Source: a virus. Taken from it: a DNA stretch of 64,000 bases. The notes under the pieces were generated by a model. It saw nothing but the letters and a program-made list of their open reading frames with translations, had not been told where the DNA came from and did no database searches. The translations under genes were made by a program, and so were the position numbers. The stretch covers positions 1-64,000 of the IMG/VR virus record IMGVR_UViG_3300048583_000198. One strand, written 5' to 3'. Below are positions 282 to 49,647 of the stretch, piece by piece (position 1 is the stretch's first letter; each line of letters begins with the position of its first letter).

Positions 282-1236
282 GCCCGACGTTCCAGCGTTG
301 TACACGCTACTCACCTACCGCCGTTCACACGGTTCGGAGGGTGAAAAGAGGTACATCCAGAACTTCATCATGCCTCTTAACCCTCGCATCATCGTGTCGG
401 AGACAGAAACGCCAATGGCGTTTTTTGTCTATGTCGGCAAGAGTGACATCATGTTTACCAGTCACACTGACACAGTGCACATGACCAGTGAGAAGGTCTT
501 CCAGGATGTTGTCCTGGAAAACGGTCTCTACTGCAAGAAAGACAATCAGCCTCTCGGGGCAGATGACGCAGCCGGTAACTGGCTGATGTTCAACATGATC
601 CACAGGAAAGTTCCTGGGATCTATGCTTTCTTCCGTGGTGAAGAACGCGGTGGCATCGGTTCAAGCTACTGTGCTGAAAAGCGCAAAGACCTGTTCGAGA
701 ACGTCAAATGCGCTATTGCACTTGATCGTCGCGGTACAACCAGTGTCATTACGCATCAAGGCGCTGGTCGCGGATGCAGCGACGAGTTCGGTAAGAGCCT
801 TGCCCAAATTCTCAATATGGGACATGTGCTCGATGACACTGGCATCTACACCGACACTGCTGAATTCTTCGGCATTGTTCCCAATTGCACCAATCTCTCG
901 GTAGGGTATGACCGAGAGCACAGCAAGAACGAGACGCTCAATAAAGCGTACATCGAAGCTTTGCGAGACAGCCTCATCGCAGCTGATTGGTCCAAGCTGG
1001 ATCACACTCCGCCAAAGGCTGATCCGATTGAACGTGGTTATGGATTCAACAGTCGCAGCTATCCCTTGTTCAGCTCTGACCAGATTCAAGCAGCACGAAA
1101 TATCGTGCCAGATCTAGATATTGGTCCGCTGCAGATTGGTGACTTCCTGTACGACTACTCGGATCGCTTGCCTCCTGATCTTCGTGACAAGGCACTAAAA
1201 CTGGCGCAACGGATCTACAAGAGGTTCGAAATGTGA
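268..1236 (+). CDS. M20-like zinc metallopeptidase
   Basis: About 322 residues. Ordered motifs match the metal site of M20/M28-type exopeptidases: HTD at 66-68, GADD at 97-100 (bridging Asp), GEE at 124-126 (general base and metal ligand), LDRRG with Asp at 153, and YDREH with His at 218. The family uses two metals to cleave small peptides or amide bonds; the substrate here is unknown. Start chosen at the ATG at 268 because GGAG lies six bases upstream; in-frame ATGs at 256, 262 and 265 are alternatives. It overlaps the next gene by one base (TGATG). A peptidase of this type is unusual in a replication operon. It could act on host peptides or on a conjugated metabolite. Confidence 0.72.
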   Translation: MTSTRPDVPALYTLLTYRRSHGSEGEKRYIQNFIMPLNPRIIVSETETPMAFFVYVGKSDIMFTSHTDTVHMTSEKVFQDVVLENGLYCKKDNQPLGADDAAGNWLMFNMIHRKVPGIYAFFRGEERGGIGSSYCAEKRKDLFENVKCAIALDRRGTTSVITHQGAGRGCSDEFGKSLAQILNMGHVLDDTGIYTDTAEFFGIVPNCTNLSVGYDREHSKNETLNKAYIEALRDSLIAADWSKLDHTPPKADPIERGYGFNSRSYPLFSSDQIQAARNIVPDLDIGPLQIGDFLYDYSDRLPPDLRDKALKLAQRIYKRFEM

Positions 1237-14182: not shown

Positions 14183-14479
14183 ATGACCGCGAAAGCTAAA
14201 AAGACTTCTGCATTGTCTTTGGAAGACCTGGACAAGCAGTACAACCCCAACGTGATCATCCCTGCTCGTATTCGTGCTGGCCTTGCCAAGCTGGGTGATC
14301 ATGCGATGACAGCCATGAACTTCCAGCACGAAGCCAACGTCACCACTGTGCAGCTCGCGCAGTTCTCCGAGATGTTCGAGAAACATCAGGTTGTCGTCCG
14401 TGATGGCGGCAAACCGAAGACGTTGTGGTGTGGCACTGAAGCCTTTGCACGTAAAGTGCGGGAGCGTTTAGGCGTATGA
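14183..14479 (+). CDS. Hypothetical protein, 98 aa
   Basis: The N-terminal part SLEDLDKQYNP is nearly repeated at the start of the next gene product (TLDELDRQFNP), after which the two differ. The rest is likely helical. It overlaps the next start by four bases (ATGA). The shared N-terminal peptide suggests that both bind the same partner. No family recognised. Confidence 0.7.
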   Translation: MTAKAKKTSALSLEDLDKQYNPNVIIPARIRAGLAKLGDHAMTAMNFQHEANVTTVQLAQFSEMFEKHQVVVRDGGKPKTLWCGTEAFARKVRERLGV

Positions 14480-15975
14480 GCAAATTCACCCTCGACGAAC
14501 TGGATCGACAGTTCAACCCTGCGTATGTTCTTCAAACTCCGCAAACGGTCCTGGCACGAGATCTTCGTCCTGGGTGTAATCGCTTCATCATCACGTCGGC
14601 TCAGAACGGTACACCGGTACACGAGAATTTCTGGGCCTGTCTTCAGAGTGCTGCGAGACACTTGAATGCCGAGATCCTCGTCATTCCAATGCGCTACAAG
14701 AACCCGACTTCGGTGTTCTCTGGATCACAGCGCAACCTCGAGTGGTGGTCACCTGTTGTCACGCCGTTCCTTTGGAACCAGCGTCTTCAGCTAAACCGCA
14801 ATCTCGTTGTCATGGCTGACTATCAGCTGCAGCCAACTGCTGTTGATCCGTTGTCAGGCATGGATGGTGTCAGCGGCGACTTCTCTGGCATCTTTGGTCA
14901 TACCAAGATGCGTCTTCGATCTGTAGCCACGCCACAGAGCAAGATGGCTAAGACAATCACAACCACTGGTGCTTGCACCGTGGAAAACTACACAGCCAGT
15001 CGTGCCGGTAAGACCGCAGAGTTCCACCATGTATTGGGGGCACTGCTCGTGGAGCTAAGCGATAACGGTCGGCACTTCTGGCTGCGTCAGCTCTACTACA
15101 AGGAAGAGACCAATCGAGTTCTCGACCTTGATGATGCTTACTACGTGAACGGTCACCAGAAGGCTCCGCCATGCCTTGCTGGCATTGGTGGTGACACTCA
15201 CGTTCGCTTCATGGATCCCATGGTTCGTGATGCTCGTTTCCGTGAAGGCGGCTTCCTGGATACGATCCGTTGTCTCAACTGGATCGAGCACGACCTGCTC
15301 GACTCCTACAGCTGCAGTCCGCATCACGACAAGAATCCAATGATCTGGTTGGCCAATCGTTTGGCTCAACAAGATTCTATTGCGGATGAGATCGACGAAG
15401 TGGCGATGTATCTGGAAGGTCTTCGGGACAGATACCCGACGATGCAGATTCATGTCATCACATCGAACCACAATGACATGGCGACGCGAGCAGCCCTGGC
15501 ATTCATGAAGGGCGGCTTGAAAGCCATTCCTCAGGTTTCGCCTATCAACCTCCAGTGGCTCGGCCAAACGATAGCCGAGATGGCGGCTGAGTGTAAGCTC
15601 GAGGAATGGGGCACAAACTACCCGGATGCCCTCAGTCTCTACCTGCGTAAGGTGAAACTGGGCAAGCGAATCCACATGCTCTCAGACCGCGACAGCTTGA
15701 TGCTGGGCGGCATTGAGCATGCCATGCATGGGCACTACGGCCCCAATGGCTCTCGCGGCTCTGTGCGCAACCTGGCGCGTATTGGCGTGAAATCCTGGAC
15801 CGGTCATGGCCACTCGAAGGAAATCTTCGAAGGGGCCAAGCGAGTTGGTACAGCCACACGGCTCTTTGCTGACTACACCCATGGTCCCAGTTCTTGGACC
15901 AATGCCGATGGTCTGACCAATGCCGATGGCAAGGGACAGCTGATCGACTACATTGACGGTAAGTTCAGGCTATAA
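14476..15975 (+). CDS. Metallophosphoesterase-like protein (T5 A1-like?)
   Basis: 499 residues. Candidate metal ligands appear in the order of calcineurin-type phosphoesterases: GGDTH at 238-242, EHD at 271-273, SNHND at 330-334, HGH at 418-420 and GHGH at 443-446. This fold includes Mre11/SbcD nucleases and the T5 A1 early protein, needed for host DNA breakdown. The N-terminal 11 residues resemble those of the preceding small protein. If active, it could cleave host DNA or a nucleotide. The assignment is by motif only and the first 200 residues are unassigned. Confidence 0.55.
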   Translation: MSKFTLDELDRQFNPAYVLQTPQTVLARDLRPGCNRFIITSAQNGTPVHENFWACLQSAARHLNAEILVIPMRYKNPTSVFSGSQRNLEWWSPVVTPFLWNQRLQLNRNLVVMADYQLQPTAVDPLSGMDGVSGDFSGIFGHTKMRLRSVATPQSKMAKTITTTGACTVENYTASRAGKTAEFHHVLGALLVELSDNGRHFWLRQLYYKEETNRVLDLDDAYYVNGHQKAPPCLAGIGGDTHVRFMDPMVRDARFREGGFLDTIRCLNWIEHDLLDSYSCSPHHDKNPMIWLANRLAQQDSIADEIDEVAMYLEGLRDRYPTMQIHVITSNHNDMATRAALAFMKGGLKAIPQVSPINLQWLGQTIAEMAAECKLEEWGTNYPDALSLYLRKVKLGKRIHMLSDRDSLMLGGIEHAMHGHYGPNGSRGSVRNLARIGVKSWTGHGHSKEIFEGAKRVGTATRLFADYTHGPSSWTNADGLTNADGKGQLIDYIDGKFRL

Positions 15976-18443: not shown

Positions 18444-19688
18444 ATGACCACTGAAAATTACAAGTACCTTGAAACTCAAGGTGCTCCGGTGAAGGCATGG
18501 GTGCACGGTGTGCAGCTCGAGGAAGCTGCCTGGAAGCAGCTGCGCAATGTCGCTGAGCTTCCCTTCATCTACAAGCACGTGGCTGCCATGCCTGATGTGC
18601 ACTGGGGTATGGGCGCAACCGTTGGCAGCGTCATTGCCACCAAGGGTGCAATCATTCCGGCTGCTGTCGGTGTCGACATTGGCTGCGGCATGATGGCTGT
18701 TCAGACTTCTCTAGTTGCCAGCGATCTACCTGACAACCTCGGTTCTCTTCGGTCTCGTATCGAAGCTGCCATCCCGCATGGCCGTACCGACAACGGTGGA
18801 GCCAATGACCGTGGAGCTTGGAGCAACGTACCTGCCATGGTGGAGTCGGAGTTCTTTGGCGGCGGTAGCTCTACTTCGCTGCACAGCTCTCTGCAACGTA
18901 TCGTAGCCAAGCACCCTTCCATTGCGAAGGCGGCTGAGCGTGCGCCTCGTCATGCCGGAACTCTCGGCACTGGCAACCATTTCATCGAGGTGTGTCTCGA
19001 TGAGAATGACAACGTATGGGTGATGTTGCATTCCGGTAGCCGTGGGATCGGCAACCGTATTGGTAGCCACTTCATTGAGTTGGCCAAAGAAGAGATGCGC
19101 CAGTGGCACATCAACTTGCCAGACATCGACCTGGCCTACTTGCCGCAGGGTTCCAAGTATTTCCTGGACTACTGCGAGGCGGTGGGTTGGGCTCAAGAGT
19201 TTGCCCGTACCAACCGTGAGATCATGATGCGCGAAGCACTCAATGCTCTCCAAACTGAGGTCAAGCCGTTTGACCTCACTGCAAAGGCAATCAACTGCCA
19301 TCACAACTATGTTGCGTGGGAGCGACACTTCGGTGAGAACGTCATCGTCACTCGCAAGGGTGCGGTACGTGCGCAGAAGGACGATCTGGGAATCATCCCA
19401 GGCTCCATGGGAGCCCGTAGCTTCATCGTTCGTGGCAAGGGCAACCGTGAGTCCTTCTGCTCTTGCTCGCACGGCGCAGGCCGTCGTATGAGCCGTGGAG
19501 AGGCCAAACGCACCTTCACCCTGGCCGACCATGCACAAGCCACGGCTGGCATTGAGTGCCGCAAAGACATCGACGTGCTGGATGAAACCCCCGGTGCGTA
19601 CAAAGACATTGATGCGGTAATGGCGGCTCAAGCCGACCTAGTGGACATTGACCACATTCTGCATCAGGTGCTTTGCGTAAAGGGTTGA
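18444..19688 (+). CDS. rtcB: RNA-splicing ligase RtcB
   Basis: 414 residues, full family length. RtcB joins RNA 2',3'-cyclic phosphate (or 3'-phosphate) ends to 5'-OH ends with GTP and manganese. Seen here: VDIGCG with metal ligand C81, GTGNHFIEV, LHSGSRGIG, INCHHNYV, PGSMG, and the guanylylated His in SHGAGR (H343, equal to H337 of the E. coli enzyme), then YKDID. Three tRNA genes follow within 20 to 200 bases, so it may repair tRNAs cut by host defence nucleases; that link is inference. Confidence 0.95.
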   Translation: MTTENYKYLETQGAPVKAWVHGVQLEEAAWKQLRNVAELPFIYKHVAAMPDVHWGMGATVGSVIATKGAIIPAAVGVDIGCGMMAVQTSLVASDLPDNLGSLRSRIEAAIPHGRTDNGGANDRGAWSNVPAMVESEFFGGGSSTSLHSSLQRIVAKHPSIAKAAERAPRHAGTLGTGNHFIEVCLDENDNVWVMLHSGSRGIGNRIGSHFIELAKEEMRQWHINLPDIDLAYLPQGSKYFLDYCEAVGWAQEFARTNREIMMREALNALQTEVKPFDLTAKAINCHHNYVAWERHFGENVIVTRKGAVRAQKDDLGIIPGSMGARSFIVRGKGNRESFCSCSHGAGRRMSRGEAKRTFTLADHAQATAGIECRKDIDVLDETPGAYKDIDAVMAAQADLVDIDHILHQVLCVKG

Positions 19689-19704
19689 TGCTACACTTCC
19701 AATT

Positions 19705-19779
19705 CAGGGCGTAGTTCAGCGGTAGAATGTCTGCTTTGGGAGCAGATGGTCGAAGGTTCGAATCCTTCCGCCTTGACCA
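19705..19779 (+). tRNA. tRNA-Pro (UGG)
   Basis: Full cloverleaf: acceptor CAGGGCG pairs with CGCCTTG (one G-U pair), D arm GTTC...GAAT, anticodon arm TCTGC-TTTGGGA-GCAGA giving anticodon TGG, T arm GAAGG-TTCGAAT-CCTTC. The 3' CCA is encoded. Confidence 0.93.
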
Positions 19780-19786
19780 GTTTCGT

Positions 19787-19873
19787 GGGTGAGCGGTGAA
19801 GTTGGAGAGTCACGGCAGACTGTAACCCTGCTGTCTTTTGGCTGAGTAGGTTCGAATCCTACCTTACCCACCA
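19787..19873 (+). tRNA. tRNA-Tyr (GUA)
   Basis: Class II tRNA with a long variable arm. Acceptor GGGTGAG pairs with CTTACCC, followed by A and encoded CCA. Anticodon loop CTGTAAC gives GTA; the T arm is GTAGG-TTCGAAT-CCTAC. The long variable arm fits bacterial tRNA-Tyr. The anticodon stem has an A-C mismatch next to the loop. Confidence 0.88.
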
Positions 19874-19877
19874 CTTT

Positions 19878-19953
19878 AGGAAGATAGCTCAGCTGGTAGA
19901 GCATTCGACCGATAATCGAAAGGCCGCTGGTTCGAACCCAGCTCTTCCTACCA
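19878..19953 (+). tRNA. tRNA-Ile (GAU)
   Basis: Acceptor AGGAAGA pairs with TCTTCCT, D arm GCTC...GAGC, anticodon arm TTCGA-CCGATAA-TCGAA giving GAT, T arm GCTGG-TTCGAAC-CCAGC, encoded CCA. Only four bases separate it from the tRNA-Tyr gene, so the three are probably cut from one transcript. Confidence 0.95.
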
Positions 19954-20146: not shown

Positions 20147-20243
20147 GGATCTTCGTCCGTCTCGAGGCTGTCGCCATCACGGTCCCTGCGCGTGGTGTGC
20201 ACAGGGCCGTACTCATTCGACTCGTCGTCGAGCCCCTGCTTAG
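20091..20243 (+). CDS. Small Cys/His phage protein (HHGxCxxC motif)
   Basis: 50 residues from a GTG start, with GAGGAG about nine bases upstream. Very basic. The motif CRHHGPCAWC followed by GRTHS resembles a small protein motif found in many phages. A zinc site is likely. It overlaps the preceding gene by 56 bases and ends facing the vRNAP gene with a four-base overlap. Confidence 0.5.
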   Translation: MSRTIRKKLKGKGKARDGEDLRPSRGCRHHGPCAWCAQGRTHSTRRRAPA

Positions 20244-23200
20244 AACACCTTGGAGTGAATCGTCGCCGTAGGCGAACCCCACATCTGATCCAATCCCGTT
20301 GAGTTGTCGATGCCACGCTCGTAGATAGCACCGTCCAACGGTCCCGGAGTCCCCACAACATTGCCCAGCCCCTGGGACACAAAGAACGAAAAGGGATTTT
20401 TCCGGAAGCGGTTCAACAGCACGTTCTGTGCACGCAACGTGAACTGACTCCACCAAATCATTCCGTACGTTTCGAGCGATGCACGCATCCGGCCAGGGTT
20501 GGTCTGATACGAAATCAACTCATCACGCACTTCATCACGTGCCTTTTCAACGGTTGCACCGTTCTCAATCATGTGCTGGAAGATCGCATAGCGTGCCAGG
20601 AAGTCACCCGCCTGAATCGCCTTTGATAGCGCATCATGTAGAGTACTGTCCTTTGCAAACAGTGCATTGGCCAGAATGGTTGGTGCCTTCGGGTGAACCT
20701 TCTCACGCAGATGGTTGTTCATCCAGCCAGCCAGATCACCCAGGTAGCTGTGTGACGGACTCTCTTCGAGACCTTCCGGCAGATCACTCAGCTCACCGGC
20801 TTCGATCAATGGGTAGATCGACAGGCGCTCAATCGAACGACGCTTTGCCGTCTGTATGGTGCGGAGACGTTCTTTCTCCACATCATCGGTTGTGCCAGCA
20901 ATCTGGATGCGCAGCTGAATGACTTCCCGCTGCAGTCGGTTGTATGCCTGCACTTCCCGCATACCCTGTCGGTACCACTTCGCCATACGGGAAGGCGGTA
21001 CGCCGTTGGCAATGACGAGATGCATTGCGCTCTGGAAGTTCTGGTAGGCAACCACCAAGCTTCGAACGATGATCAAGTCCTTTGCGGTGGCAACACCTTC
21101 CTTAAGTGCCTGTTCAGCTGCAAGGAAAATCTGTGTGCCCTTCGGTCCAGCAAACACCGTCTGGATGAGACCCAACAGAATCTTGCGCGTATCAGGATTC
21201 AACGACGCATCGCCCGTGTAGATCTCGAGCGCACCTGCGTTGTGATAGCCAATCGTGTTGGCCAACAGATCCTTGCGGACCATCACTGGGCCACCAAACG
21301 CATCAGCCAGATCGCGCTTGATGTCAGCCGGGATGTTCTCCCACGCACGCGCCACCTGCTTGTCGGTGCTCGAATTCACCATTTCATATTCGGCTTCACG
21401 TCCAGCGTCTTTACCTTCCTTCCACTGGTTCACCATCAGCTTGATGGCTTCCTGGTTCAATCGACGAGCCATGTTCTCTTCGGTGATACGACCGAGCTTC
21501 TTGCCGATTGAAACGTGGAGAAGCGTGTTGTTGCCCTTCAAGCTCTCGCGGACGATGGTCGGGTCGAGCATGCGCTCGTAGCCCATCACTTCACCCTGGA
21601 AGTTGAACACTGCTACAAGGTTGCTGTCACGGCCCTTGGTGCGCTGGATATAGCTGACAACCTGCTGGTTACTCAGCATCGTCCCAACCTCCGGCGTCAC
21701 AGAAGCGGCGGTGGTGTAATTGATACCCATCGCGGTCTGCTGCACGGTTGCAATGATGCCCTGCGAGAACACTGGCGGCGGCGTGTAACGACGGCTGTAG
21801 TAGTACAGATCGCTTTCCGGATCGCCAGAAGTCTGCGGATACTTCTTGCCCTTGATGTAGCCGAGCTGCTCGAGCTGTGCTCCCTTAATGCCATTGGCGA
21901 TGACCACGGATGAACGTGGGTCAGTCGACATGGGGAGACTGTCCTTCCAGTAGACATACCGGTACTCAGTACGCTGGTGCTGCTGTTCAGCTTCCTTAAC
22001 GTGCTTGAGCATGCCCACGAGCTTGTCCATGGACTCGGGGTGAGCCCTGAAGTATTGGCCCACCTTGGCTCGCTCAGAGGCCGCCAGGTACTCGATGGCG
22101 TACAGGGTGACCAACTGATCGGCATCGGCCACAAGGCTGTCTGGAGCCGTTCTGCGACGGCCATTGAGGTCATCTGCGATGGCTCGAGCATTGCGCAGCA
22201 GTTCCTGGGCAATCCCCGGCTTCGGCTTGCGGTGCACGAGGTAGTAACCCAGGTTCTGAGCGTCGATGTAATTATCAACTTTAGATTCAAGAACGGTGAT
22301 CATCCGCCGACGCTCAGCATCGTTAAGGTACATCTCAGCCGCCGAGCTACCCAGCACACTGACATCCAACCGGCCAAAGGCTTCGAACAGCGTGTTCCAG
22401 CCGTCGAAGTCCTCCGGGAAAAGTTTGCTCAGTTCCCTGGGGAGCGTGTTGTCGAACATGGAACGGGTCTGGTTGATCGCCGTCATCATGGCGTTGTGCG
22501 CCCGATAGATGAGTCGGCCATCGCCCTTAGTGCCAGCCAAAGCAGCAACCAGATCCTGGAGCCAACGCTGATCGGTGTGCGTGTTCACAGCTGCAATCAG
22601 ACCGCTTCCAAAGGCCGCAGCGCCCTTCTCAGTGGTCAAGGCAGCGATGCCCTTGAGCAACGTGTCGACGTACTGTGGGGCACGTGGAGCGGCGTCAGCG
22701 GCTTTCTGGCCAAGCTTCTCCATCATCCGGTTACCAAGGCGGTCCAGACGGCTGGTCACCGTGGCGTAGTAGCTCTGCTCCAAGTCCTTCTCAACCAGCA
22801 TTGCTGAAATGGCTTCATTCAGCATGTTGCCGCCTGAATCCTGTTGAGCATTGTTGAGTGCCTTGTCTATTAAGGCATCAGCAAGAGTCTGCTCATCCCG
22901 ACCAGCCCACAGCCGGTTCAGCTGTGCACCGAAGGTCGGCTCAACAGCAGCCAGTGCCATGACGGCTGCTACGACATCAGGCGACTTGTTGAACAGGTTC
23001 TTCTGAGGATGCTTCGAGAACGTGGCATCCACAAACTGCTCGAGTTCGGGAGACCGCTGACCCACACGCAACAGCGTGTAGACACGGGTGAACAAACGCT
23101 GCTGTTCTGGCGACAAGTTGTATGCCGTCACTGCCATGGCTTGAGTAGCGAGGTTCTCGCGCTGCACGCCAGCCAGCTGAATGTTCTGTCCCTGGGCCAT

Positions 23201-26200
23201 ACGCTGGAACAGATCGACGTACGCATCTTCAGTCAGCTGCTCAAGCGTAGCCAAACCGTCTTCTGGGACATGCTGACTCAACCGAGTCGACACACCGTCA
23301 ACGAGTCGGGCATCAGCCGGTACGCTGTCAGTCAAACTGCGGAACACATCCATGGCTTCGTTGTAGAAGTCATTGGCCGGTTCAATCTTGATGATGAAGC
23401 GCAGGATTTGCTTGACGCGGTTGATCACGCGCTGAACAAAACCAGGCGACAATTCTTCGATCACCGCGTCTTCGGTGAACACGTACGCCAACATTTCGCC
23501 CAGCTCATCTTGTGGCTGACCGTGCCAGTCATACGAAGTCATGACTCGCTGCACAAACCCAACGCGGCCAACGGCTGGCAACTTCTTGAACCGTTCCATG
23601 AGCTGCACGAGATCGTTAATTGGACCACGCAGCTCTACTGGCACCTGATTGATGTTCGAGAAGAAGTTGTCGATGTGTCGCGTGAAGATTGTGTGAATCA
23701 ACTCATGCAGCATCACCGAGGGTGAAGCCACCTTGAGCATGATGAAGCTGCCGGACGCAACGCCGGTCGTCACGCTGAAGCGGTGCTTGTGCATGCCACG
23801 CTGTTCAATCGTGTTGTTCCAGGCTTCTTCCGTGTCAGCAAGTTCCACCGACAGGTCAGCTGGCAGCAGGTTACGGATACGCTTCCAGACCGTACGATGG
23901 ATGGCATTCTTCCATTTCATCGCATCCAGGGCAGCGATTACTGCCGCACGATCGAGCTTCTTGTTGTTCACTTCGAAGGAAGTCTTCAGACCCTGATCTG
24001 TTTTCACCGTGCTCACAGATGCCTTGCCCGTCAGGCGGACATTTCGGAATACGGGCTCACCATCGTCCGTCTGCAGATTGTCCGTGCGCAGAACTTGGTT
24101 CTCGCGGATCTTCTCTTCAAGTTCGGCATCGCTGTACCGAGACTCAAACGTGATGATGCCTGCTCGCTTAGCACGCAGGTACATACGGATTGCGCTCGGG
24201 TGAACACTCTTGTCCGAGTCGTAAGCCACCCCAGCATCAGCCGCCATCTGCAACACCTTCACCAGACGCCGCAGCCCCGCACTCATGCCGTTCACAAGGC
24301 TTGGCTTAGCCGTGAAGGTATTGCGACCACGCCAACGCGGTCCCTTCATAATCACGTCAATGAAGCCTTCCTCGTCTTCAATACGGGTGGCTTCCGGATG
24401 CTTGTACTGATCTGGGTAACGGCCAGCTTCACGTGGACCCACTTCAGAGATGTCAGCAACCTGAGTACGAGGAGCGTCTTCCTCGAGCGATAGCTCGAAG
24501 TCGAAATCAAGCGACGCACTGCTGCGCACTTCACCACCAGGCGTGTTGAATTTGCCACCACCACCCATTTGATAAACGGTGTGCTTACCAGCAAGCAGCT
24601 CTTCTTGGCCGGTACGCTGTTCTCGATGTAGCTGGTTAAACTCGTCAACCGCTTCATTGAACCGAGAAGCCCATGAAGCAAAATCCTCGATGAACATCTT
24701 CTCATTGGGCTGCATGCTGTTGAAGGTATCAACGAGTGCATTGCGCTCAGTCTCAGTCGCTGCATCTAACAAGATCCGCATATCAGCAACCATTCCCTGG
24801 AAGCTGTTCAGAATGTCAAAGCCAGCTGTGGCCCACACGGCTTCATTCAAGGCCGTTCCAGCGGCCTCAATGTCGGTGACCTTCAGATCAATACCGTCGA
24901 ACACGTTCGTGGCATTCCACGCTTTCTGGAAGAAGCGAACACCCATCGAAGCATCGCCACCCGAGATGGTGAGCAAGGCCAGGATGCTGACACCGACAGG
25001 ACGAGGCGCAGGCGAGTCGAGATTGGCATCCATCGAAGTACCAAGACCCGTGATGGACGTTGCGTTTGGATTGAAGTCAGTGTTGTTCAAGCTGACGGTC
25101 TTGGGACCGTTGAGCGTGTTGAACGACAGGTCAATCGTTTCAGACATCAGGCGGTCATACTCGTCACGGCTGAGATCGTACAAACCAGTCTTCTTGTACT
25201 TCTCAAGCAGCGCCGCATTCTCAGGCTTAGCTTTGATCCATTCCTGAAGCTTTTGGTCCCACTGAACCTTCTTCATCATGTAGGCAAAGTTGGTCAGCTT
25301 AACCAGAGTATTGGTGACCTGCACAACACGACCTTTCTCACCGCCGTAAGCTTTGCTCATTGCAGAAGCCAAACCATCTAATGAGCGATGCCAGCGCACA
25401 GCATCCCAATTTTTGGCCTTGCTTAGCTGCTTTACATCCATGCCAAAACTTTCGTGGCCACGGAGCAACGTCTCAAGATGGCCCATCTGAGCCACCAGCT
25501 GCTGACGACGAGTTTCATCCGTCGTTCGATCCAATTCGTTCTTGGCTTTGATCCAGTTGAGATTGATGTTACGTACAACATCACTCCATAGTTGACGTTT
25601 AATCCCTGTTGGTCCACCGCCATATTGAACAGGAATCACGGCCAGCTTACCGGCATCTCGACGGAAGAGAACTTGAGGAAGACCCTTCACCTCAACACGC
25701 TCGCCGTTGAATACAACGGACATGTTCGGCGTTTCCTTCGTTTGAGGCAACACCTCAATGAGTCCAGCTGCTTCAAGCAGGAACAACTGACCCTTCAGCG
25801 GATTGATCAGGTTCGGATACTGCTTGAGAAGATCAGCCAGTCCCTTCACGAAGTGATAGCGAGCACGCATGTTGATGCGGCCATAGAAGTCGTCGCTCTC
25901 GTATGCTTCACGCATACGATCACGCTCAGTCTCGTAGGTTGCATCCTGCTTATCCAGGAATAAGCCGCCCTGCTCAAGGTTGGCTCCATTACGCACACCC
26001 AAGCCGAAGAACAGTTCGGTGTTGAATGCACCGTTGGTCTTGCCGTCAATTTCGAACATCAAGTAGTTCGTGAACGTGCCCTTACCATCCTGAGCAAGGA
26101 TGCGACCGTAAGTCAACAGAGCCGCCAGCTCACGAGGGCTGTAAGGCTTGTCACGGTTTTCCTTCAGTGCTGCAAGCAGTGCAGCCTGATCAGTGCGAGC

Positions 26201-29200
26201 TGCCCATACCTTCTTGGCAAGAGCAGCGTGCTTACTGCGAATCTTCTCCCATTCACGAAGTACTGAAGCCGGATCATTGATGTCAGTCTTGACGCCAAAT
26301 GCCTGAGCCAAAGTCATCTGCATGTACTTGGCATGATTCGGATCGTCAAGATTCAACTCCTCTTCTGCGGAGGAGAACATGTCACGCACAAACTTGTTGT
26401 TCTGCGGACCCATCACGGTCTTGACGCGGTTGTTGATACCGATGTGGTACTTGTAGAACAAGCCCTTGGCACCACCCTCCGTTAGCTCGTGGTATTTGCG
26501 TACTGCAGCAAACTCCATCGTGAGTCGCTCGTTCTGGCTCTTGAGCCATTCACGCACGCTCGAGGGAACGGTGCCGTCATCTTTCTCGGGCACAGCGCCA
26601 TACCAACCGGTGAGAACCTGCTTCATCAGGTCATCGCCCAGCGTAGTGAACATGCCATACATGTCGCCAAACAGACCATGGCGAACCTTTTGCAGGTTCT
26701 CCAGGGCAGTCTGCATCGGTGCAGAAAGCTTCGTCCTGGTGTACTGAATCGTGTTGTCGACTTCAGTATGCGGCTCAGACTGCGCTTCCCATACACGCTC
26801 ACCATCCAGCTGTTCCTGCACAGCGTCGATGGTATTCATATTGTTCTTAGCAGCGTTCCGGGCAGACTCGGTTGGGACCAGAATCTGCATGGTATCCATG
26901 TACGAGGCATCGCTGAGCGTACCGTCCGAGGTCGCCTCCAGCGTGCGCAGATTCGTGTTGTTCCATGCATCCGTTTCTGGATTGAAGTCTGCCTTCATGT
27001 CGAAGTTTTGGGACTCAATCAGAGCAGCGAGCGTTGAGAGCCCATAAGACAGGAACGTGCCCTGCGAAATGTCGAGGCTGGCGCTACGCTTTGCCGTGAC
27101 ACCGAGCAAGGTCATCGCAACGTCAGCGATATCCTGTGCCCACACTTCCTTGAAGATGTCACGCGACAGTCGACCTTGCTCATCGACAAGCTCACCTGTG
27201 AACTTGGCGGAGTTGCGGAACATGACGATAGCGCCAGCCCAGGCAAATGCCTTGATCACTTCGTCAGGCACCGACATCTTGCCGCTCTCTTCTTTCTGCC
27301 AGAGTGCGGATGCAACGCCGTACGGCTTATCCAGGTAGTCTTCCTTACCGGACTGCGCGATATCGAGGATGCCCTGCTGGAGAATGCCACGACGAGTGCC
27401 ATCCTTGAACTTCGGACCCTTGCCAGCCAGCAGTTGATAAAGAGCACCGGCCTCACTGCGATAGAGATCGAACGCAGTTGAGGTCTCTTCACCACGGGTA
27501 ACGGTCATTGACTTGAACTTCTCAAGCCAACCATCAACCGTATTCGCTGGGTCGATGTTGAACCACGTGGCCAGACTGTCCCGCGCCCAGCTTGTTACTG
27601 CGAGGAGGGGGTTTTGCGTTTGAGGCTGCGGAGCAGATTCCTGAGCAGTGTTGCTATCAACCCCAGCGTCAGGAACACCAGCAGGCTCTGCTGGAGGATT
27701 CTCTCGAGCCAACCTGGCTTCAACATCTCGCTCGTAGGCTCGGACGGCTTCTCGTTCGGCTGCATCTTCCTTCTCCTGTTCTAGGCGAACTTTCTCTTCT
27801 GCAGCCAACTTCTCAGCCGCATCCTTTCGAGCAGCTGCTTCAGCTGCTTTCGTTTTCTTTTCGTCACGAGCAATCCTCTCTTCTTCAACCTTTTCAGTTG
27901 CCTGAATAGCTGCACGCTCAGCACGAGCCTCTCGCTCAGCTTCCGTTTCAGCCTTTTTCTGGGCAGCCTCCTCCTCAGCTTTCTTCTTGGCTTCAGCCAG
28001 GATAGCGGCATTCGGAGATTCTTCCTGAGGCTGAGCAGCAGCTTGTCGAGCAGCAATGATGGCATCGAGCTTAGCCTTCTCAGCGGCAGCTCGTTCCATG
28101 GATGCAGCAGCGAGCTGTGGGGCAGTCTTCGCAACTGTGTCCCACATGCGCTCAGCTTCAGCAACGTCAGCCAACACTTCATTGACCATGTTGCGGGAAG
28201 CTTCAGAACCACGGCCACTGATGTAGATGCGGAATGGATTACCCACTCGCTTGCCATCTTCATCTAGCGTGGCAGTGCCTTCGACTTCCACGTAGTTGGT
28301 CTTAAGGTATTCGGCGTACTCAGGCTTACGAACGTTCTCAGGCTTCCTAAGCAAGTCAACAAGTTCGCCAGCCTTCCTGAACGCTTCACCGCGTGCACGA
28401 AGATGTTGAAGGAATCCAGCCGCCTTGGTGGCTGCGCCAATCGGAGCCTTGGTGTCAGATACACCTTCGACACGCAGGGCTGAGGCAATACCGTTGATGT
28501 AGTCCAACATGCCACGCTTGCGAGTGGCTGCTTTACCCGTCGACCGATTCTCCCAACCCTTGTTGAGGATCTGTTCACGGGTTTCTTCAGTCTTGGAAGT
28601 CGGACCAGGACGAGCCACTGCAGCAGGAATCTTTTTGAGTTCCTGCACGAGCGGCTTCAGAGGCTCAGGGACAGCTTCAATCGGCAGACGGGCAATGTTC
28701 ACCGCTGCCACTGCCTGCACCGTCTGCTGGGCTTCTACGTCGCCCTGGTTGGCTGCTTCAACAGCTGCAGCGATCTCTTCGTCGCTCTTCTGAGCAATCT
28801 GTGCCTTGGCTTCGTCGATCTTACCGGCAGTTGCCAGTTCCTCAGATTGAATGATGGCCTTGGCCTGAGCCTCGTCTACTTCACCATCTTCAGTTCGAGT
28901 GATGTCAGCACGAGTCTCGAGTGCATTGGCCGTGAGGACAGCCTCTACATCAGAGTCGGCACTCTTTGCCGGAGCCACTTCACCAACAGGCAGTTTATAT
29001 GAAGTCGGTTGAGTTGCGTTCTCTTCCGTTGAAGGCTCAGAAACGACTGGAGCCGTTTCTACAGCGGGCTCACCAGATGAGCCTGTGCTGTCGGGAACCG
29101 TTTCTTCGACTGCCGCCGTAGATTGGATCACCTCCTCGGAATTCGGAGTAGCTTCGATTGCCTCAGAAGCAGCCGCAACAGCCGCACCTTCAGGCGTTTG

Positions 29201-30217
29201 AGCACGCGATTTGAGACCAGAAGCGGCTGCGGCCAGCCCTTGACGCACACCTGCGCCAATAGCCTGAGCTGAGTTCCTGACGAGTCCAGGAGCCCGCATA
29301 CCACCTGTGAACAGAGAACTGATAACGGCTGCTTCGCCAGTAGCCGCACCGACACCTTCCATTGGATCTCGACCGGCAAGCACGTTGTCGGCCACCGTTT
29401 GACCAATTGCCATGCCGCCTTCTTCGAACACTTCGGCACCGATGGCCGAGGCGGTAGGACGGATTGCATCGCCCAGGAACTGGGAAACAACGTTGGTGCG
29501 TCGACCCAGCGGATCGAGTTCGAATCCCGGAGTAAGCTTGCCAAGTACGGTACCCAAACCAGCACTGAATGCACCAGCCAGAAGTGCTTGACGTTCGGCT
29601 TCAGCTGGATCACCCGTCTCCTGCAAAGCTCGTTCATACGTTTGGCCATATGCACCAGCACCTTCCAAAACACCACTGAGTGCAGCCACGCGATTTATAG
29701 TAGCGAGTTCACCTGTACCGGTAGCTACACGGCTGAGCACTGTTGGAACAGCTGCTTTCGAAGCAACACCCATGGCTCGAGCAGCAGGACCGATCATCAG
29801 ATACGGAGTCTGCGAAGCCACATCAGCAATAACATTACCGCCGCTGAAGGTGTTGCCTACAGCTTCAACGAAGCCGGCTACTTCGCCTTCTTCAGCTGTA
29901 ACACGAGCATTACGGGCAGCATCATCTCTACGTTCAGCCAGATACGCAGGTGAACGGAGTTGATCAAGAGTCTGTGAGTTTCGAACGGCATCAGCCAGTT
30001 CATACGTTGGGAGAGTGGCCAGCGGAATGCTGCCAAGACTCTGCAACGTATCCAAGATACCAACGGCGGAATCGCCTACCGTGTTGCGATGACGATAGGC
30101 ATCGTTCTCTCGCAAGGCACCAACAAGGTCATTCGACTCGAGAACGGATGTGTCACGAAGTTCTGCCGACGACAGCAACTTGAGTTCTGGAAGCGAAGAC
30201 TTGATGTCGTCAGCCAT
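20240..30217 (-). CDS. Giant virion RNA polymerase (N4 gp50 type)
   Basis: 3325 residues. In N4 the homologous virion protein is injected and transcribes early genes from hairpin promoters. Polymerase motifs, divergent but in order and with N4-like spacing: INNRVKTVMGPQNNK with R1264 (TxxGR-type motif), motif A FEIDGKTNGAFN with D1391, motif B R1520...K1524...Y1532-G, and motif C TISGGDASMG with D1755. Residues about 1-350 are Ala/Gly-rich with possible membrane-active helices, and about 720-840 form a long Lys/Glu/Ala coiled coil. The roughly 1500-residue C-terminal part contains MLHELIHTIF with HELIH at 2171-2175, the zinc-protease signature. It is the last gene of the virion operon. Confidence 0.88.
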   Translation of the reverse strand: MADDIKSSLPELKLLSSAELRDTSVLESNDLVGALRENDAYRHRNTVGDSAVGILDTLQSLGSIPLATLPTYELADAVRNSQTLDQLRSPAYLAERRDDAARNARVTAEEGEVAGFVEAVGNTFSGGNVIADVASQTPYLMIGPAARAMGVASKAAVPTVLSRVATGTGELATINRVAALSGVLEGAGAYGQTYERALQETGDPAEAERQALLAGAFSAGLGTVLGKLTPGFELDPLGRRTNVVSQFLGDAIRPTASAIGAEVFEEGGMAIGQTVADNVLAGRDPMEGVGAATGEAAVISSLFTGGMRAPGLVRNSAQAIGAGVRQGLAAAASGLKSRAQTPEGAAVAAASEAIEATPNSEEVIQSTAAVEETVPDSTGSSGEPAVETAPVVSEPSTEENATQPTSYKLPVGEVAPAKSADSDVEAVLTANALETRADITRTEDGEVDEAQAKAIIQSEELATAGKIDEAKAQIAQKSDEEIAAAVEAANQGDVEAQQTVQAVAAVNIARLPIEAVPEPLKPLVQELKKIPAAVARPGPTSKTEETREQILNKGWENRSTGKAATRKRGMLDYINGIASALRVEGVSDTKAPIGAATKAAGFLQHLRARGEAFRKAGELVDLLRKPENVRKPEYAEYLKTNYVEVEGTATLDEDGKRVGNPFRIYISGRGSEASRNMVNEVLADVAEAERMWDTVAKTAPQLAAASMERAAAEKAKLDAIIAARQAAAQPQEESPNAAILAEAKKKAEEEAAQKKAETEAEREARAERAAIQATEKVEEERIARDEKKTKAAEAAARKDAAEKLAAEEKVRLEQEKEDAAEREAVRAYERDVEARLARENPPAEPAGVPDAGVDSNTAQESAPQPQTQNPLLAVTSWARDSLATWFNIDPANTVDGWLEKFKSMTVTRGEETSTAFDLYRSEAGALYQLLAGKGPKFKDGTRRGILQQGILDIAQSGKEDYLDKPYGVASALWQKEESGKMSVPDEVIKAFAWAGAIVMFRNSAKFTGELVDEQGRLSRDIFKEVWAQDIADVAMTLLGVTAKRSASLDISQGTFLSYGLSTLAALIESQNFDMKADFNPETDAWNNTNLRTLEATSDGTLSDASYMDTMQILVPTESARNAAKNNMNTIDAVQEQLDGERVWEAQSEPHTEVDNTIQYTRTKLSAPMQTALENLQKVRHGLFGDMYGMFTTLGDDLMKQVLTGWYGAVPEKDDGTVPSSVREWLKSQNERLTMEFAAVRKYHELTEGGAKGLFYKYHIGINNRVKTVMGPQNNKFVRDMFSSAEEELNLDDPNHAKYMQMTLAQAFGVKTDINDPASVLREWEKIRSKHAALAKKVWAARTDQAALLAALKENRDKPYSPRELAALLTYGRILAQDGKGTFTNYLMFEIDGKTNGAFNTELFFGLGVRNGANLEQGGLFLDKQDATYETERDRMREAYESDDFYGRINMRARYHFVKGLADLLKQYPNLINPLKGQLFLLEAAGLIEVLPQTKETPNMSVVFNGERVEVKGLPQVLFRRDAGKLAVIPVQYGGGPTGIKRQLWSDVVRNINLNWIKAKNELDRTTDETRRQQLVAQMGHLETLLRGHESFGMDVKQLSKAKNWDAVRWHRSLDGLASAMSKAYGGEKGRVVQVTNTLVKLTNFAYMMKKVQWDQKLQEWIKAKPENAALLEKYKKTGLYDLSRDEYDRLMSETIDLSFNTLNGPKTVSLNNTDFNPNATSITGLGTSMDANLDSPAPRPVGVSILALLTISGGDASMGVRFFQKAWNATNVFDGIDLKVTDIEAAGTALNEAVWATAGFDILNSFQGMVADMRILLDAATETERNALVDTFNSMQPNEKMFIEDFASWASRFNEAVDEFNQLHREQRTGQEELLAGKHTVYQMGGGGKFNTPGGEVRSSASLDFDFELSLEEDAPRTQVADISEVGPREAGRYPDQYKHPEATRIEDEEGFIDVIMKGPRWRGRNTFTAKPSLVNGMSAGLRRLVKVLQMAADAGVAYDSDKSVHPSAIRMYLRAKRAGIITFESRYSDAELEEKIRENQVLRTDNLQTDDGEPVFRNVRLTGKASVSTVKTDQGLKTSFEVNNKKLDRAAVIAALDAMKWKNAIHRTVWKRIRNLLPADLSVELADTEEAWNNTIEQRGMHKHRFSVTTGVASGSFIMLKVASPSVMLHELIHTIFTRHIDNFFSNINQVPVELRGPINDLVQLMERFKKLPAVGRVGFVQRVMTSYDWHGQPQDELGEMLAYVFTEDAVIEELSPGFVQRVINRVKQILRFIIKIEPANDFYNEAMDVFRSLTDSVPADARLVDGVSTRLSQHVPEDGLATLEQLTEDAYVDLFQRMAQGQNIQLAGVQRENLATQAMAVTAYNLSPEQQRLFTRVYTLLRVGQRSPELEQFVDATFSKHPQKNLFNKSPDVVAAVMALAAVEPTFGAQLNRLWAGRDEQTLADALIDKALNNAQQDSGGNMLNEAISAMLVEKDLEQSYYATVTSRLDRLGNRMMEKLGQKAADAAPRAPQYVDTLLKGIAALTTEKGAAAFGSGLIAAVNTHTDQRWLQDLVAALAGTKGDGRLIYRAHNAMMTAINQTRSMFDNTLPRELSKLFPEDFDGWNTLFEAFGRLDVSVLGSSAAEMYLNDAERRRMITVLESKVDNYIDAQNLGYYLVHRKPKPGIAQELLRNARAIADDLNGRRRTAPDSLVADADQLVTLYAIEYLAASERAKVGQYFRAHPESMDKLVGMLKHVKEAEQQHQRTEYRYVYWKDSLPMSTDPRSSVVIANGIKGAQLEQLGYIKGKKYPQTSGDPESDLYYYSRRYTPPPVFSQGIIATVQQTAMGINYTTAASVTPEVGTMLSNQQVVSYIQRTKGRDSNLVAVFNFQGEVMGYERMLDPTIVRESLKGNNTLLHVSIGKKLGRITEENMARRLNQEAIKLMVNQWKEGKDAGREAEYEMVNSSTDKQVARAWENIPADIKRDLADAFGGPVMVRKDLLANTIGYHNAGALEIYTGDASLNPDTRKILLGLIQTVFAGPKGTQIFLAAEQALKEGVATAKDLIIVRSLVVAYQNFQSAMHLVIANGVPPSRMAKWYRQGMREVQAYNRLQREVIQLRIQIAGTTDDVEKERLRTIQTAKRRSIERLSIYPLIEAGELSDLPEGLEESPSHSYLGDLAGWMNNHLREKVHPKAPTILANALFAKDSTLHDALSKAIQAGDFLARYAIFQHMIENGATVEKARDEVRDELISYQTNPGRMRASLETYGMIWWSQFTLRAQNVLLNRFRKNPFSFFVSQGLGNVVGTPGPLDGAIYERGIDNSTGLDQMWGSPTATIHSKVF

Positions 30218-30274: not shown

Positions 30275-31828
30275 TTACTGGAGACGAGCAAGCTCTGCTT
30301 TCAGCTTCGCCAGCTGTCGCTGTGCGTCTACCAGCACCTGACCGTTGATCTTTCGTTCTTGAACCAGGCGGGTGTACTCGTTCACAGACTGTTGAGCAAT
30401 ACCAATCTGAGCCTGCAACGAATCACGCTTAACGCCGGGATTGTTTTCGTAACGTTGACGAACTTCCTTTGGAATCTCGAGCGTGTTGTTGCTACTGGCA
30501 GCCGCCGCCGTAAGACGCAGATCTCGACCCAGCTTGGCCTTGTCCTTGGATGCGTTGGCATCAATCGCAGCCAGATCGGCTTCGACTTTCTCACGACCGC
30601 CCTTCGCATTGAGGTCAGCCACATCCGCGATGAGGGCCTTCGTGTTATCACCAATGACGCCAATGCTATCGAACGGAGTCATGCGATTGAGGGTGCTTTC
30701 CACAATGAAGTAGGCTTCCTCGCGCTTGATCTCCTGACCAAAGTTTTCCTTCGCGTAGTCCTGGATCAACTGGACACGCTGCTTGAAGTCTCCCGTGTCC
30801 CAGTCACGAGCAAGCCAGCCATCACCCGCACCCGTCTTCTTGATGAAGGCTTGTGCCGCATCTTCGTCGCCCATGCCCTTGTACGGATTCGGCGCAAGGA
30901 GTTGCGACGTACGCACAGCGGTGTCGTACTTCGACTTCTCGATACGAGTGTTCTCGTCGACTGCCGCCGCTTCCTTCGTGATGAAGTCGGTGTAAGCACG
31001 GGCACTGGTACCCGTCTTGGGGTCAATGCGATCCAGCTCCAGCTGGCTTGGCATGTTGCCAGCCAGACCAATGCCAGCCGCTTTTCGTGCGGTGTCGATC
31101 AAAGTCAACGGAGCACGATTGCGCTCAAGAATCTTGAGTACGGTTTCGTCACGATTGGCTTCGTCTTCCGCCAGACCTTCAGGCGTGGCGTAGTACTTGA
31201 TGATCTCGCTCAGAGCATTCTGACCGTTCTGTTCCTTGACACGATCCGCTCGAGCAGCTGCTGCCGCCTCACGACGGAGAGCAATCTCTTCGAGCTTGAT
31301 CTTGTTGTCGAGATGGTCTTTCGACCAACCGTCAATCGTGTCCAGGGCTTTCTGCCCAGCAACCGTTTGCCAACGAGGATCGCTCTTGTCGATTTCGAAC
31401 GGCTTGCCGTTGAGTGCAAGATCCCGATACGGCAAGGCCATGTCGGCGGCTTGTCGAATGTCTTCACGATCCTTCAACTGCGCATCGAGCATTTCAATGT
31501 TCTTGTTCGTGCTCTTGAGAGTTGCATCAACAACCTCAGCATCTTTCAGTTCTTTGGTACGCCCACTGGCGGCTTTGGCAATAGCCAAAGGATCAATGGT
31601 CCAGTCCTGAGGAGCAGCAGCAGCGGCAGCAGCCGGATCCTGGCTCAATGCAATGTCTGCAATGGCAGCGTCAGTAGCCGTCTTGATTTGCTGATTTCGA
31701 TTGTCGACAGCAACCTGGCCAATGTCTTTGATGCCCTGAGCGAGACGATCACCGCCTCGGCCAAACATTTCAATGGCAGCAGCATTGCCTCGGTAGGCGA
31801 CATCAGTCCACGTGATCGGACGAGCCAT
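30275..31828 (-). CDS. Internal virion / ejection protein, helical
   Basis: 517 residues, nearly all predicted helical, Ala-rich, no Cys, with several coiled-coil stretches (for example LKDREDIRQAADMALPYRDL). It lies just before the vRNAP gene, where N4 has structural gene 51. Such proteins are usually packed with the DNA and ejected. The call rests on position and make-up, not on a recognised domain. Confidence 0.65.
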   Translation of the reverse strand: MARPITWTDVAYRGNAAAIEMFGRGGDRLAQGIKDIGQVAVDNRNQQIKTATDAAIADIALSQDPAAAAAAAPQDWTIDPLAIAKAASGRTKELKDAEVVDATLKSTNKNIEMLDAQLKDREDIRQAADMALPYRDLALNGKPFEIDKSDPRWQTVAGQKALDTIDGWSKDHLDNKIKLEEIALRREAAAAARADRVKEQNGQNALSEIIKYYATPEGLAEDEANRDETVLKILERNRAPLTLIDTARKAAGIGLAGNMPSQLELDRIDPKTGTSARAYTDFITKEAAAVDENTRIEKSKYDTAVRTSQLLAPNPYKGMGDEDAAQAFIKKTGAGDGWLARDWDTGDFKQRVQLIQDYAKENFGQEIKREEAYFIVESTLNRMTPFDSIGVIGDNTKALIADVADLNAKGGREKVEADLAAIDANASKDKAKLGRDLRLTAAAASSNNTLEIPKEVRQRYENNPGVKRDSLQAQIGIAQQSVNEYTRLVQERKINGQVLVDAQRQLAKLKAELARLQ

Positions 31829-31830
31829 GG

Positions 31831-32328
31831 TTAACCCCTCATGCCGGAAGGTAGTTCAGCTTCCTTCAAGGCCGCCTGACGCTCTTCCTCGGTCGCATAC
31901 CAGCGACCCGTGGTGCGATCCTTCATCTGCGTGTTGTAGCTGTCCACCTGATTGGCCAGATTCGTCTTGAATGCCTTCTTCTCGAACTTGAGAGCATCCT
32001 TCGCAAGGCCCAGCTGCTGCAGACCGATGTAAGCATTGATGCCGCTACCGATGACGTTCGCCCAGTTGCCAATCGTCTGGCCATTCTTGCCGAACCAACC
32101 ACCGATCTTACCCAGACTGCCAAGGATACCGCCGCCACCAGGAGCAGTCGCAGCAGGTACAGCTGCCGTAAGAGCATCCCAGGAACCTTGGCCAAAAGCA
32201 GGAATCGTGCTCGGAGGAGCCATCACGCCCGTATTCGGGTTGAAACCCCCCGAAGAGGTCGGAAGACTGAGCTGGTTGAGATTGCCCCAGGTGTCGGGAA
32301 CGTAGTTACCGTTTGCATCAAAAGCCAT
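31831..32328 (-). CDS. Internal virion protein, 165 aa
   Basis: N-terminal Pro/Gly/Ser-rich region, then a Gly-rich hydrophobic stretch (GGGGILGSLGKIGGWFGKNG... NVIGSGINAYIGL) and a C-terminal charged helix. This is like small internal core proteins of podoviruses (T7 gp14 type) that insert into the membrane on ejection. Two bases separate it from the gene downstream. Confidence 0.6.
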   Translation of the reverse strand: MAFDANGNYVPDTWGNLNQLSLPTSSGGFNPNTGVMAPPSTIPAFGQGSWDALTAAVPAATAPGGGGILGSLGKIGGWFGKNGQTIGNWANVIGSGINAYIGLQQLGLAKDALKFEKKAFKTNLANQVDSYNTQMKDRTTGRWYATEEERQAALKEAELPSGMRG

Positions 32329-47067: not shown

Positions 47068-49647
47068 TTAAGCGTAATTGCGGTCAGGTGTCAGTGTAAC
47101 TGGGATGGACGAGTCCACCGCCGTCAAAGCCAAGTTCCGAATATAGTACGGCACGTACCCAGGCTTAAGGAACCCAATGTCGATGTTCTGCGCACCTGAG
47201 AACACAAAGCCATAGGAAGATGCTGCCAAAGCATCCCGCTGGTCAAGAATAGTCGACGTACCGGCTGTCAGAACCACAACGTCACAACCAGTCGGGAGAC
47301 CGGTGAACGTCACTGTGTTCGTATCAAGCGGATACAGATTGGCAGCCTGGGCCGCACCGGTACTGTCAGTCTGCACGCGGATGTAGGTGATGGCGTTGGT
47401 GGTACTCGCCGTGTCGCAGACGATGCGGTACTTGAGCTTGACGCCCACTGCCGGATCAATTGCGCCTACGCCGCTCAGGTTCGCCGCCGTCAGGTCGAGC
47501 CACGAGCCGTTCCAGCCAGCGCCGATGTCGTACTGGAAAAAAATGTCGTGGTTGCCCCAGTCTGGACCAGACACATAGGTGACGTTCGTACCCGTCACGA
47601 TGGGAGCAGTATTCGTGAAACCTGTAACGCCGAGCGTGAAGTAGTGCTGCTCGAAGATGATCTCATCGTTTAGCGCAGCCATCACGATCTGACCGGCGCT
47701 CGTAAATTTCGGCGTACCTGCGACAACTGTAATGTAGGCTGCTGTTTCAGCAGTCGGTTCATTCATCGGCAGTGTGATTCGGCCTACGGTGTCCGAGACA
47801 AACGCATCCCAAAAGTGCGTGCCGTAGACGGATGACTGACCCGTAACTGAAGTCGTACCGGCGCAATTCTTGGCCGTTTCATTCAGACCTGCAAGCACGA
47901 TGGCGTCAGCGCCGTCACCGTACACATGCTCGTAGAGGTTGCCCTTGTCCGAGTTCACGGTGCTGATCGCGCCCGTACGGGTCGGCGTTAGGTAGCACCG
48001 CTGCACCTTCACGTTCTGGTTGTTGCCGCCAGACACGAAGATGTATGCGGGCGCATTCGTCCCGCCTGCAAGGTTCGACGCTTTCGTGCCTGCGTTACGG
48101 AACTTGATGTTTTTTGACAGCGTGCAGTTGAACAAGCCTGAGTACGGATGACAGTTGGCAATCGCTCCATTCAACCCGAATGTCACACCATCAACAACAA
48201 TGTTTTCAGATGAAGCCGAAACTTGCACCGCGTATACACCGCTGGTCGTGTTGGTTGTACCAACATAGCGATCCACATGATCAAGATCATTGACCGTGCA
48301 ATCGAAGCAGGTTGTGAATGTCATGGGACCATTGAACTTACGACAATTATTGAACGTCAGTCCTGACGACTGTGCAACAGCAAACGGCACACCGGTGCTT
48401 CGAGCAAAGGTTACGATGCCGCTTTGCACGTTGGTGAATGTTTGCCCGATGCAATACAACACTTCAAAAGCGTGGTCAGTCGTACCTGCCGAGGAGCGAG
48501 GGCAGTTCCAATTCTGGAACGTGCCACCAGCAAAGTTGGAGGTGAGCGTCACCGTACGAGCGTCGAGCGATTGGCTGCAGCCGTTGCCACCGTCGTTGAT
48601 GTCGAGCGCCGTCGCACACTCCGAGATGTTGATGTAGTCGAATGTAGCGACATGATTGAGCTTCACGTAGTACGGCTGTGCGAACAGCAAGTACCAATTG
48701 GTCATGAAGTTTTCGATGTCGATGTAACCTGCGCTCGTCGTTACAAAGTCCACACGAGTTGCTGCGGTTGCGTTGGGAATAACGCTTGTTGCACGCGAAG
48801 CCGCAAGGGCTTCCCGACCAATCACGTTAGGGATGCGAACACGTAACCCACTGGCTGGCACCTTACCGACTGCCGTCGTGCCGTTGTGCCCGAAACGAAC
48901 GCTGCCATTGGTCTCCATGCAGACAACTTTGCTGCGGTCGTCGGTACCAAAATTCGTCGTGATCATCAAGGCCGCGTACACCGCAGGCCAGAATTCGTAC
49001 ACGCCAGACGCCACGCCGGTTTCTACCCAAACACCTGGAACGTAGTTGGTGGTGCTCCCGTTTGTAGGGGTCTGCATCAACTGGTTGGCACTGCCGCTTG
49101 TCGTGCCAATTTCAAACCAGTCGCCACGCACCGTGAAGTCGCCAAGGCGTGGTACTGTGATTGTCACGTTCTGGTCGTGAACCACTTCGATCCAGCCAAC
49201 AACATCGACGCCATTTGCCGTTGCGCCAATACCAGATAACACATCGTTGTCGACATAGGCTGCATCTGCTTCACGCAGCTTGATGAAACCTGTGGTCGGC
49301 ATGGCTGCACCCACAGCCGTGGGAGCACTGGTCAGCGAAGCCCATACACCAAGCAGGTATCCATTTGCACCACTCGTACCACCCGTAATGGTTGTACCAA
49401 TGGCAGGCACGTTGCCGGATCCAGCATCGTAGGCAAGCCAGCGAACATTGCGGCCATCGAGAATGTAGCTGCCACCCAGGGTGGCTGAAATCGTTACGGC
49501 AGCAAGCGTCCCGGTCATCGAAGCTGGGGCATTGGCATGCCAACGAGTATCAGAGCGAATCGTGAGCGATCCACCGTTGATAGTCATGGCTTCGCCAGCC
49601 GTCCTAGCAGCATCTTCCAAGTAGACCGGGGTGGTGATAGTTGCCAT
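47068..49647 (-). CDS. Tail spike-like protein with beta-helix region
   Basis: 859 residues. The middle (about 330-600) has the turn-rich pattern of a right-handed beta-helix: short strands with Asn, Cys and Thr turns such as LTFNNCRKFNGPMTFTTCFDCTV, VVDGVTFGLNGAIANCHP, CTLSKNIKFRNAG. This fold is common in phage spikes that bind or cut sugar chains. The N-terminal part is Thr/Gly-rich and the C-terminal one ends like its downstream neighbour. No catalytic residues identified. Confidence 0.65.
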   Translation of the reverse strand: MATITTPVYLEDAARTAGEAMTINGGSLTIRSDTRWHANAPASMTGTLAAVTISATLGGSYILDGRNVRWLAYDAGSGNVPAIGTTITGGTSGANGYLLGVWASLTSAPTAVGAAMPTTGFIKLREADAAYVDNDVLSGIGATANGVDVVGWIEVVHDQNVTITVPRLGDFTVRGDWFEIGTTSGSANQLMQTPTNGSTTNYVPGVWVETGVASGVYEFWPAVYAALMITTNFGTDDRSKVVCMETNGSVRFGHNGTTAVGKVPASGLRVRIPNVIGREALAASRATSVIPNATAATRVDFVTTSAGYIDIENFMTNWYLLFAQPYYVKLNHVATFDYINISECATALDINDGGNGCSQSLDARTVTLTSNFAGGTFQNWNCPRSSAGTTDHAFEVLYCIGQTFTNVQSGIVTFARSTGVPFAVAQSSGLTFNNCRKFNGPMTFTTCFDCTVNDLDHVDRYVGTTNTTSGVYAVQVSASSENIVVDGVTFGLNGAIANCHPYSGLFNCTLSKNIKFRNAGTKASNLAGGTNAPAYIFVSGGNNQNVKVQRCYLTPTRTGAISTVNSDKGNLYEHVYGDGADAIVLAGLNETAKNCAGTTSVTGQSSVYGTHFWDAFVSDTVGRITLPMNEPTAETAAYITVVAGTPKFTSAGQIVMAALNDEIIFEQHYFTLGVTGFTNTAPIVTGTNVTYVSGPDWGNHDIFFQYDIGAGWNGSWLDLTAANLSGVGAIDPAVGVKLKYRIVCDTASTTNAITYIRVQTDSTGAAQAANLYPLDTNTVTFTGLPTGCDVVVLTAGTSTILDQRDALAASSYGFVFSGAQNIDIGFLKPGYVPYYIRNLALTAVDSSIPVTLTPDRNYA

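Follow-up and report, generated by a model that had tools for sequence, protein, structure and literature searches.

The DNA analysed here, which we call the window, is a stretch of 64,000 nucleotides (positions 1 to 64,000) of the IMG/VR virus record IMGVR_UViG_3300048583_000198, a record of 72,442 bases. On the minus strand of the window, reading from 30217 to 20240, lies an open reading frame of 3325 aa with an ATG start and no internal stop, which matches the virion RNA polymerase family phrog_2206 (E=7.5e-252) and the virion RNA polymerase (vRNAP) of phage N4 in the PDB (E=5e-73 to 1e-66). Phages of the N4 type inject a giant RNA polymerase into bacteria, and the N4 vRNAP, gp50, is carried in the virion and ejected. 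Since N4-type genes for the portal, terminase, major head protein, DNA polymerase, primase and a second RNA polymerase are present in the same genome, we take the window to come from an N4-like phage, and judged by its sequence the 3325-aa reading frame (20240..30217) is a Schitoviridae vRNAP, the counterpart of gp50.

The polymerase gene and its surroundings

Two further minus-strand genes lie beside the vRNAP gene. A 517-aa protein (30275..31828), for which no PHROG or Pfam match was found, stands in the place of N4 gp51, the periplasmic tunnel ejection protein, an assignment by position only. A 165-aa protein (31831..32328) stands in the place of N4 gp52, the outer-membrane ejection protein, and matches phrog_2646 (E=1.2e-20), a family whose function is annotated as unknown. 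Elsewhere in the window, a 499-aa protein (14476-15975, plus strand, opposite to the structural genes) matches phrog_1745, “DNA transfer protein”, at 2.3e-115, and an RtcB RNA ligase gene (Pfam 9.5e-131) followed by genes for tRNA-Pro, tRNA-Tyr and tRNA-Ile occupies 18444-19953 (plus strand). At 184-1236 (plus strand) a Pfam Peptidase_M28 match barely over the cut-off (9.2e-5) suggests that the phage may have another peptidase, with no relation to the vRNAP. Two minus-strand reading frames, of 859 aa (47068-49647) and 817 aa (59232-61685), have no PHROG or Pfam match.

The vRNAP itself can be divided into four parts, all on the minus strand. The N-terminal domain (residues 1-880, an approximate boundary; 27578..30217) precedes the polymerase module, is 43% identical to that of the metagenomic contig L027 and gave no match when a family was sought for it. 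The single-subunit RNAP module (residues ~881-1890; 24548..27577) is delimited by alignment to the N4 RNAP, with a sub-threshold match to Pfam vRNAP_dom (24 bits). It is followed by a metallopeptidase-like core (residues 2098-2262; 23432..23926), corresponding to subdomain C1 of N4, and by the C2 region (residues 2481-3325; 20243..22777), the best conserved part of the protein. A search of IMG/VR with the single vRNAP protein gave no match, and the IMG/VR relatives were retrieved with an alignment of the C2 region. In C2 the lineage of the window is ~28% identical to known schitoviruses and ~25% identical to N4 gp50; the closest relatives, the contigs L026 and L027 of uncharacterised metagenomic phages, are 65-68% identical in C2 and ~50% in the peptidase core.

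The catalytic columns of the polymerase were read from an alignment of the window protein with 24 reference vRNAPs (25 sequences). R1264 (26426..26428), the first catalytic aspartate D1391 (26045..26047) and the group R1520, K1524 and Y1532 (25622..25660), all on the minus strand, align with R1421, D1556, R1663, K1667 and Y1675 of full-length N4 gp50, in columns that are identical in 23-25 of the 25 sequences. The preliminary description had recognised an N4-type enzyme and placed these residues at N4 spacing, and to this extent it is borne out by the family match, the PDB match and the conserved columns. Its choice of D1755 as the second catalytic aspartate is rejected: the column of N4 D1948 holds D1774, in the motif VFDGID (24896..24898, minus strand), and contains an aspartate in 25/25 sequences. 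These six N4 residues are the catalytic ones, D1948 being D951 in the mini-vRNAP numbering, and they are conserved between gp50 and the window.

The HELIH motif and the predicted metallopeptidase core

The motif HELIH occupies residues 2171-2175 (23693..23707, minus strand), where the preliminary description had located it, and was placed by motif search and alignments; it would supply two His ligands and a general-base Glu. It is the sole HExxH in the 3325-aa protein. A chance occurrence in an unrelated helix has in its favour that 3.5% of shuffles of the vRNAP contain an HExxH somewhere (0.24% if a hydrophobic context is required), but the motif is conserved across relatives, and this refutes the idea so thoroughly that we assign it practically no weight. 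HExxH is found in the corresponding region of 24/24 reference vRNAPs, and among the 80 loci of the IMG/VR set it is kept in all 68 with enough upstream sequence to cover the domain.

Conservation also identifies a probable third ligand. When 26 copies of the domain were aligned locally, the only fully invariant columns were H2171, E2172, H2175 and E2241, and among 62 copies (the window and IMG/VR) only L2206 joined them, at a median pairwise identity of the core of 0.30. The spacing between the second His and the Glu2241 column ranges from ~64 to 83 residues across the 62 copies, and so the Glu column is not a product of fixed spacing. E2241 (23495..23497, minus strand), invariant in 62/62 and situated on a downstream helix in the model described below, is thus the predicted third metal ligand. 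The search for a third zinc ligand proposed earlier has in this way yielded a candidate, and the relatives retain both His and both Glu residues.

In N4 gp50 (PDB 9pnr, with the map EMD-71769, and 9pnt) the domain order is the same as in the window; C1 spans about residues 2124-2375, and the columns aligned to HELIH and E2241 contain HELVH (2228) and Glu (2310). Unlike N4, the window lacks two conserved residues near these positions: four positions ahead of the first His a near-invariant Glu is replaced by S2167, and eight positions past the third ligand a near-invariant Asn is replaced by E2249. L026 and L027 are likewise without this Glu and Asn, with 2167 occupied by S or T and 2249 by S.

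Additional copies of the motif were observed in several relatives. The vRNAP of Vibrio phage phi 1 (L025:2381-12103) has two tandem copies of the HExxH domain, at 1942 and 2177, and an extra N-terminal HExxH is present in the vRNAPs of L008, L029, L030, L032, L044-L047, L049, L062, L079, L094 and L095, the N-terminal part of the L008 protein also containing an ART-PolyVal domain.

AlphaFold2 models residues 2076-2356 (281 aa, with 61 relatives) at pLDDT 83 and the core 2098-2262 (165 aa, with 60 relatives) at pLDDT 90.3 and pTM 0.85. The predicted core runs helix, strand, helix, two strands, HExxH helix (core 69-90), two helices and Glu helix (138-151), so that HExxH and Glu sit on separate helices downstream of a three-stranded sheet; the helical context suggested for HELIH is thereby reproduced, and the motif does not stand on a helix without a candidate partner. 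This order agrees, as far as the secondary structure order of a model goes, with the published zincin core of an N-terminal helix, a three-stranded sheet and two C-terminal helices (PMC5512222).

Fold and family searches lead mainly back to vRNAPs. The domain profile matches the PDB N4 vRNAP at 1e-94, and Foldseek returns the N4 vRNAP from the PDB at probability 0.97-0.99 and vRNAPs among viral models at TM 0.71-0.75. Both the 281-aa and the 165-aa model retrieved the N4 vRNAP from the PDB, but neither matched a solved zincin there at a significant E-value; the best peptidase apart from the N4 vRNAP was Spartan (6mdx_A, E=3.8). The Pfam families matched by at least three domain members, SprT-like, Peptidase_M91 and WLM, all fall below the cut-off and are all of peptidase type. 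Assignment to WLM was rejected, the sub-cut-off match covering little beyond the HExxH helix, and a search of the phage's own genome for the SprT family was empty. A DNA-level phage search with the motif region gave no match, and when the 230-aa domain was searched by itself at the protein level, the matches were Pantoea G19 and mostly weak Mycobacterium phage sequences (E near 1), the latter set aside as weak. One annotation among the weak Foldseek matches was of a crAss-like phage RNAP fused to a zincin, for which a literature search found no paper.

Taking these data together, we consider that residues ~2098-2262 almost certainly form a zincin-like metallopeptidase domain. The authors of the N4 structure raised the alternative that the HExxH binds iron, in a hydroxylase-like enzyme of the alphaKG-HExxH kind (PMC12633501). 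We think this very improbable, since both the position of the later Glu, on a second helix, and the order of sheet and helices follow the zincin pattern, and since the sub-cut-off Pfam families all point to peptidases.

Earlier descriptions and the domain in other ejected proteins

The preliminary description regarded a polymerase joined to a metalloprotease as a new kind of injected protein. The joining of an N4-type vRNAP to a metalloprotease-like domain stands, with its invariant putative third ligand, but the novelty does not, as the combination is the normal architecture of N4-like vRNAPs and has been known since 2017. In that year Iyer et al. described a zincin-like MPTase of polyvalent proteins, defined by HExxH and a Glu on a later helix and related by profile match to the lethal-factor structure, and named the N4 vRNAP as an example (PMC5512222). 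A 2021 review repeated the metallopeptidase domain for N4 and Pectobacterium phage CB1 (PMC8472413), and the 2025 cryo-EM preprint of Bellis et al. on N4 presents the domain as subdomain C1 and remarks on its HExxH (PMC12633501). The window protein does not differ in kind from these, being another vRNAP from a divergent lineage. In the literature on the domain we found no report of zinc binding, proteolysis or a substrate.

The domain also occurs outside vRNAPs. Searched against the PDB, its profile hits an internal virion protein, chain 9sfn_G (4.5e-11). Over the region of this match, the counterparts in phiKMV-like phages have 95-100% identity; in phiKMV itself the counterpart is annotated as gp37, internal core protein, and is listed in a review as the counterpart of T7 gp16 (PMC8954989). 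Like the window protein, phiKMV gp37 is a large ejection protein with the same domain, in which HEAVH (motif at H423) and the Glu of KELVAW are found; unlike it, gp37 has 1337 aa, is not a vRNAP and comes from the Autographiviridae. HExxH and Glu are kept in phiKMV gp37, in relatives from LIMElight and Xanthomonas phage F5, and in the Parlo DarB-like protein. We conclude that the domain goes with ejected proteins and not with polymerases as such. Neither phiKMV nor internal virion proteins are named in the main text of Iyer et al. (PMC5512222), according to a text search, and we regard the phiKMV gp37 link, with the point on EDTA made below, as two modest additions.

A possible peptidase acting after ejection

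We propose that H2171, H2175 and E2241 would bind the metal and E2172 would act as general base, in an HExxH+E arrangement, and that the domain is probably a catalytically active peptidase, whatever its substrate. Alternatively, the metal site might be structural or inactive, and the domain retained because it serves encapsidation or holds the RNAP in check as an autoinhibitory clasp. In keeping with this, C1 of N4 contacts the RNAP and the full-length N4 protein transcribes less than the isolated RNAP (PMC12633501), and the region is required for encapsidation (PMC5512222). Such a role would not need E2172 to be invariant beside three ligands; because the general-base Glu and all three are invariant at a median identity of 30%, we favour an active metallopeptidase and consider the structural role unlikely.

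Several observations count against activity, namely the absence of reported zinc, proteolysis or gp50 degradation, the lack of a significant Foldseek match to a zincin, and the loss of Glu2167 and Asn2249 in the clade of the window. According to the N4 preprint recombinant gp50 shows no degradation, but the purification of full-length gp50 for cryo-EM included 0.5-1 mM EDTA (PMC12633501), and for this reason its stability is no test of a zinc protease.

By analogy with N4, the domain would enter the virion and leave it within the full-length vRNAP. We infer that a working zinc peptidase would not become active until it has been ejected, either in the cell envelope or in the cytoplasm, a timing that we favour with some reserve. 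Among the options considered by Iyer et al. (PMC5512222) is processing in the head; self-processing there, ahead of ejection, would resemble what has been proposed for DdrB of phage P1 prior to packaging, and a giant multidomain protein does have a narrow tail to pass. The N4 vRNAP is packaged unprocessed (PMC5512222), which disfavours processing before ejection, and we hold it to be improbable.

As to the target after ejection, the likeliest may be the ejected assembly itself, for example through freeing or remodelling of the polymerase and C-terminal parts, although we put this forward tentatively and a host substrate is nearly as likely. A domain directed at the host would, once injected, cleave a bacterial protein of the envelope, of defence or of regulation, as Iyer et al. 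proposed for polyvalent-protein MPTases (PMC5512222). The presence of the same domain in ejected DarB-like antirestriction proteins and in phiKMV gp37 is consistent with such an effector, as is the finding that the N-terminal part of some relatives also has ART-PolyVal and a further HExxH. It is a credible possibility, but the domain is found in every vRNAP whatever the host, for which a substrate intrinsic to the phage is the better fit.

That the domain is present in phiKMV gp37, a different ejection protein, argues for linking its presumed activity to ejection or early contact with the host, and not to transcription. We speculate, with considerable doubt, that the domain may be a general ejection-protein protease of unrelated phages (in the Schitoviridae vRNAP, phiKMV-type gp37 and the Parlo DarB-like protein), which after delivery would carry out a common step of genome entry. 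The clade of the window would then carry a variant of it in which residues close to the active site have changed and, perhaps, the specificity too.
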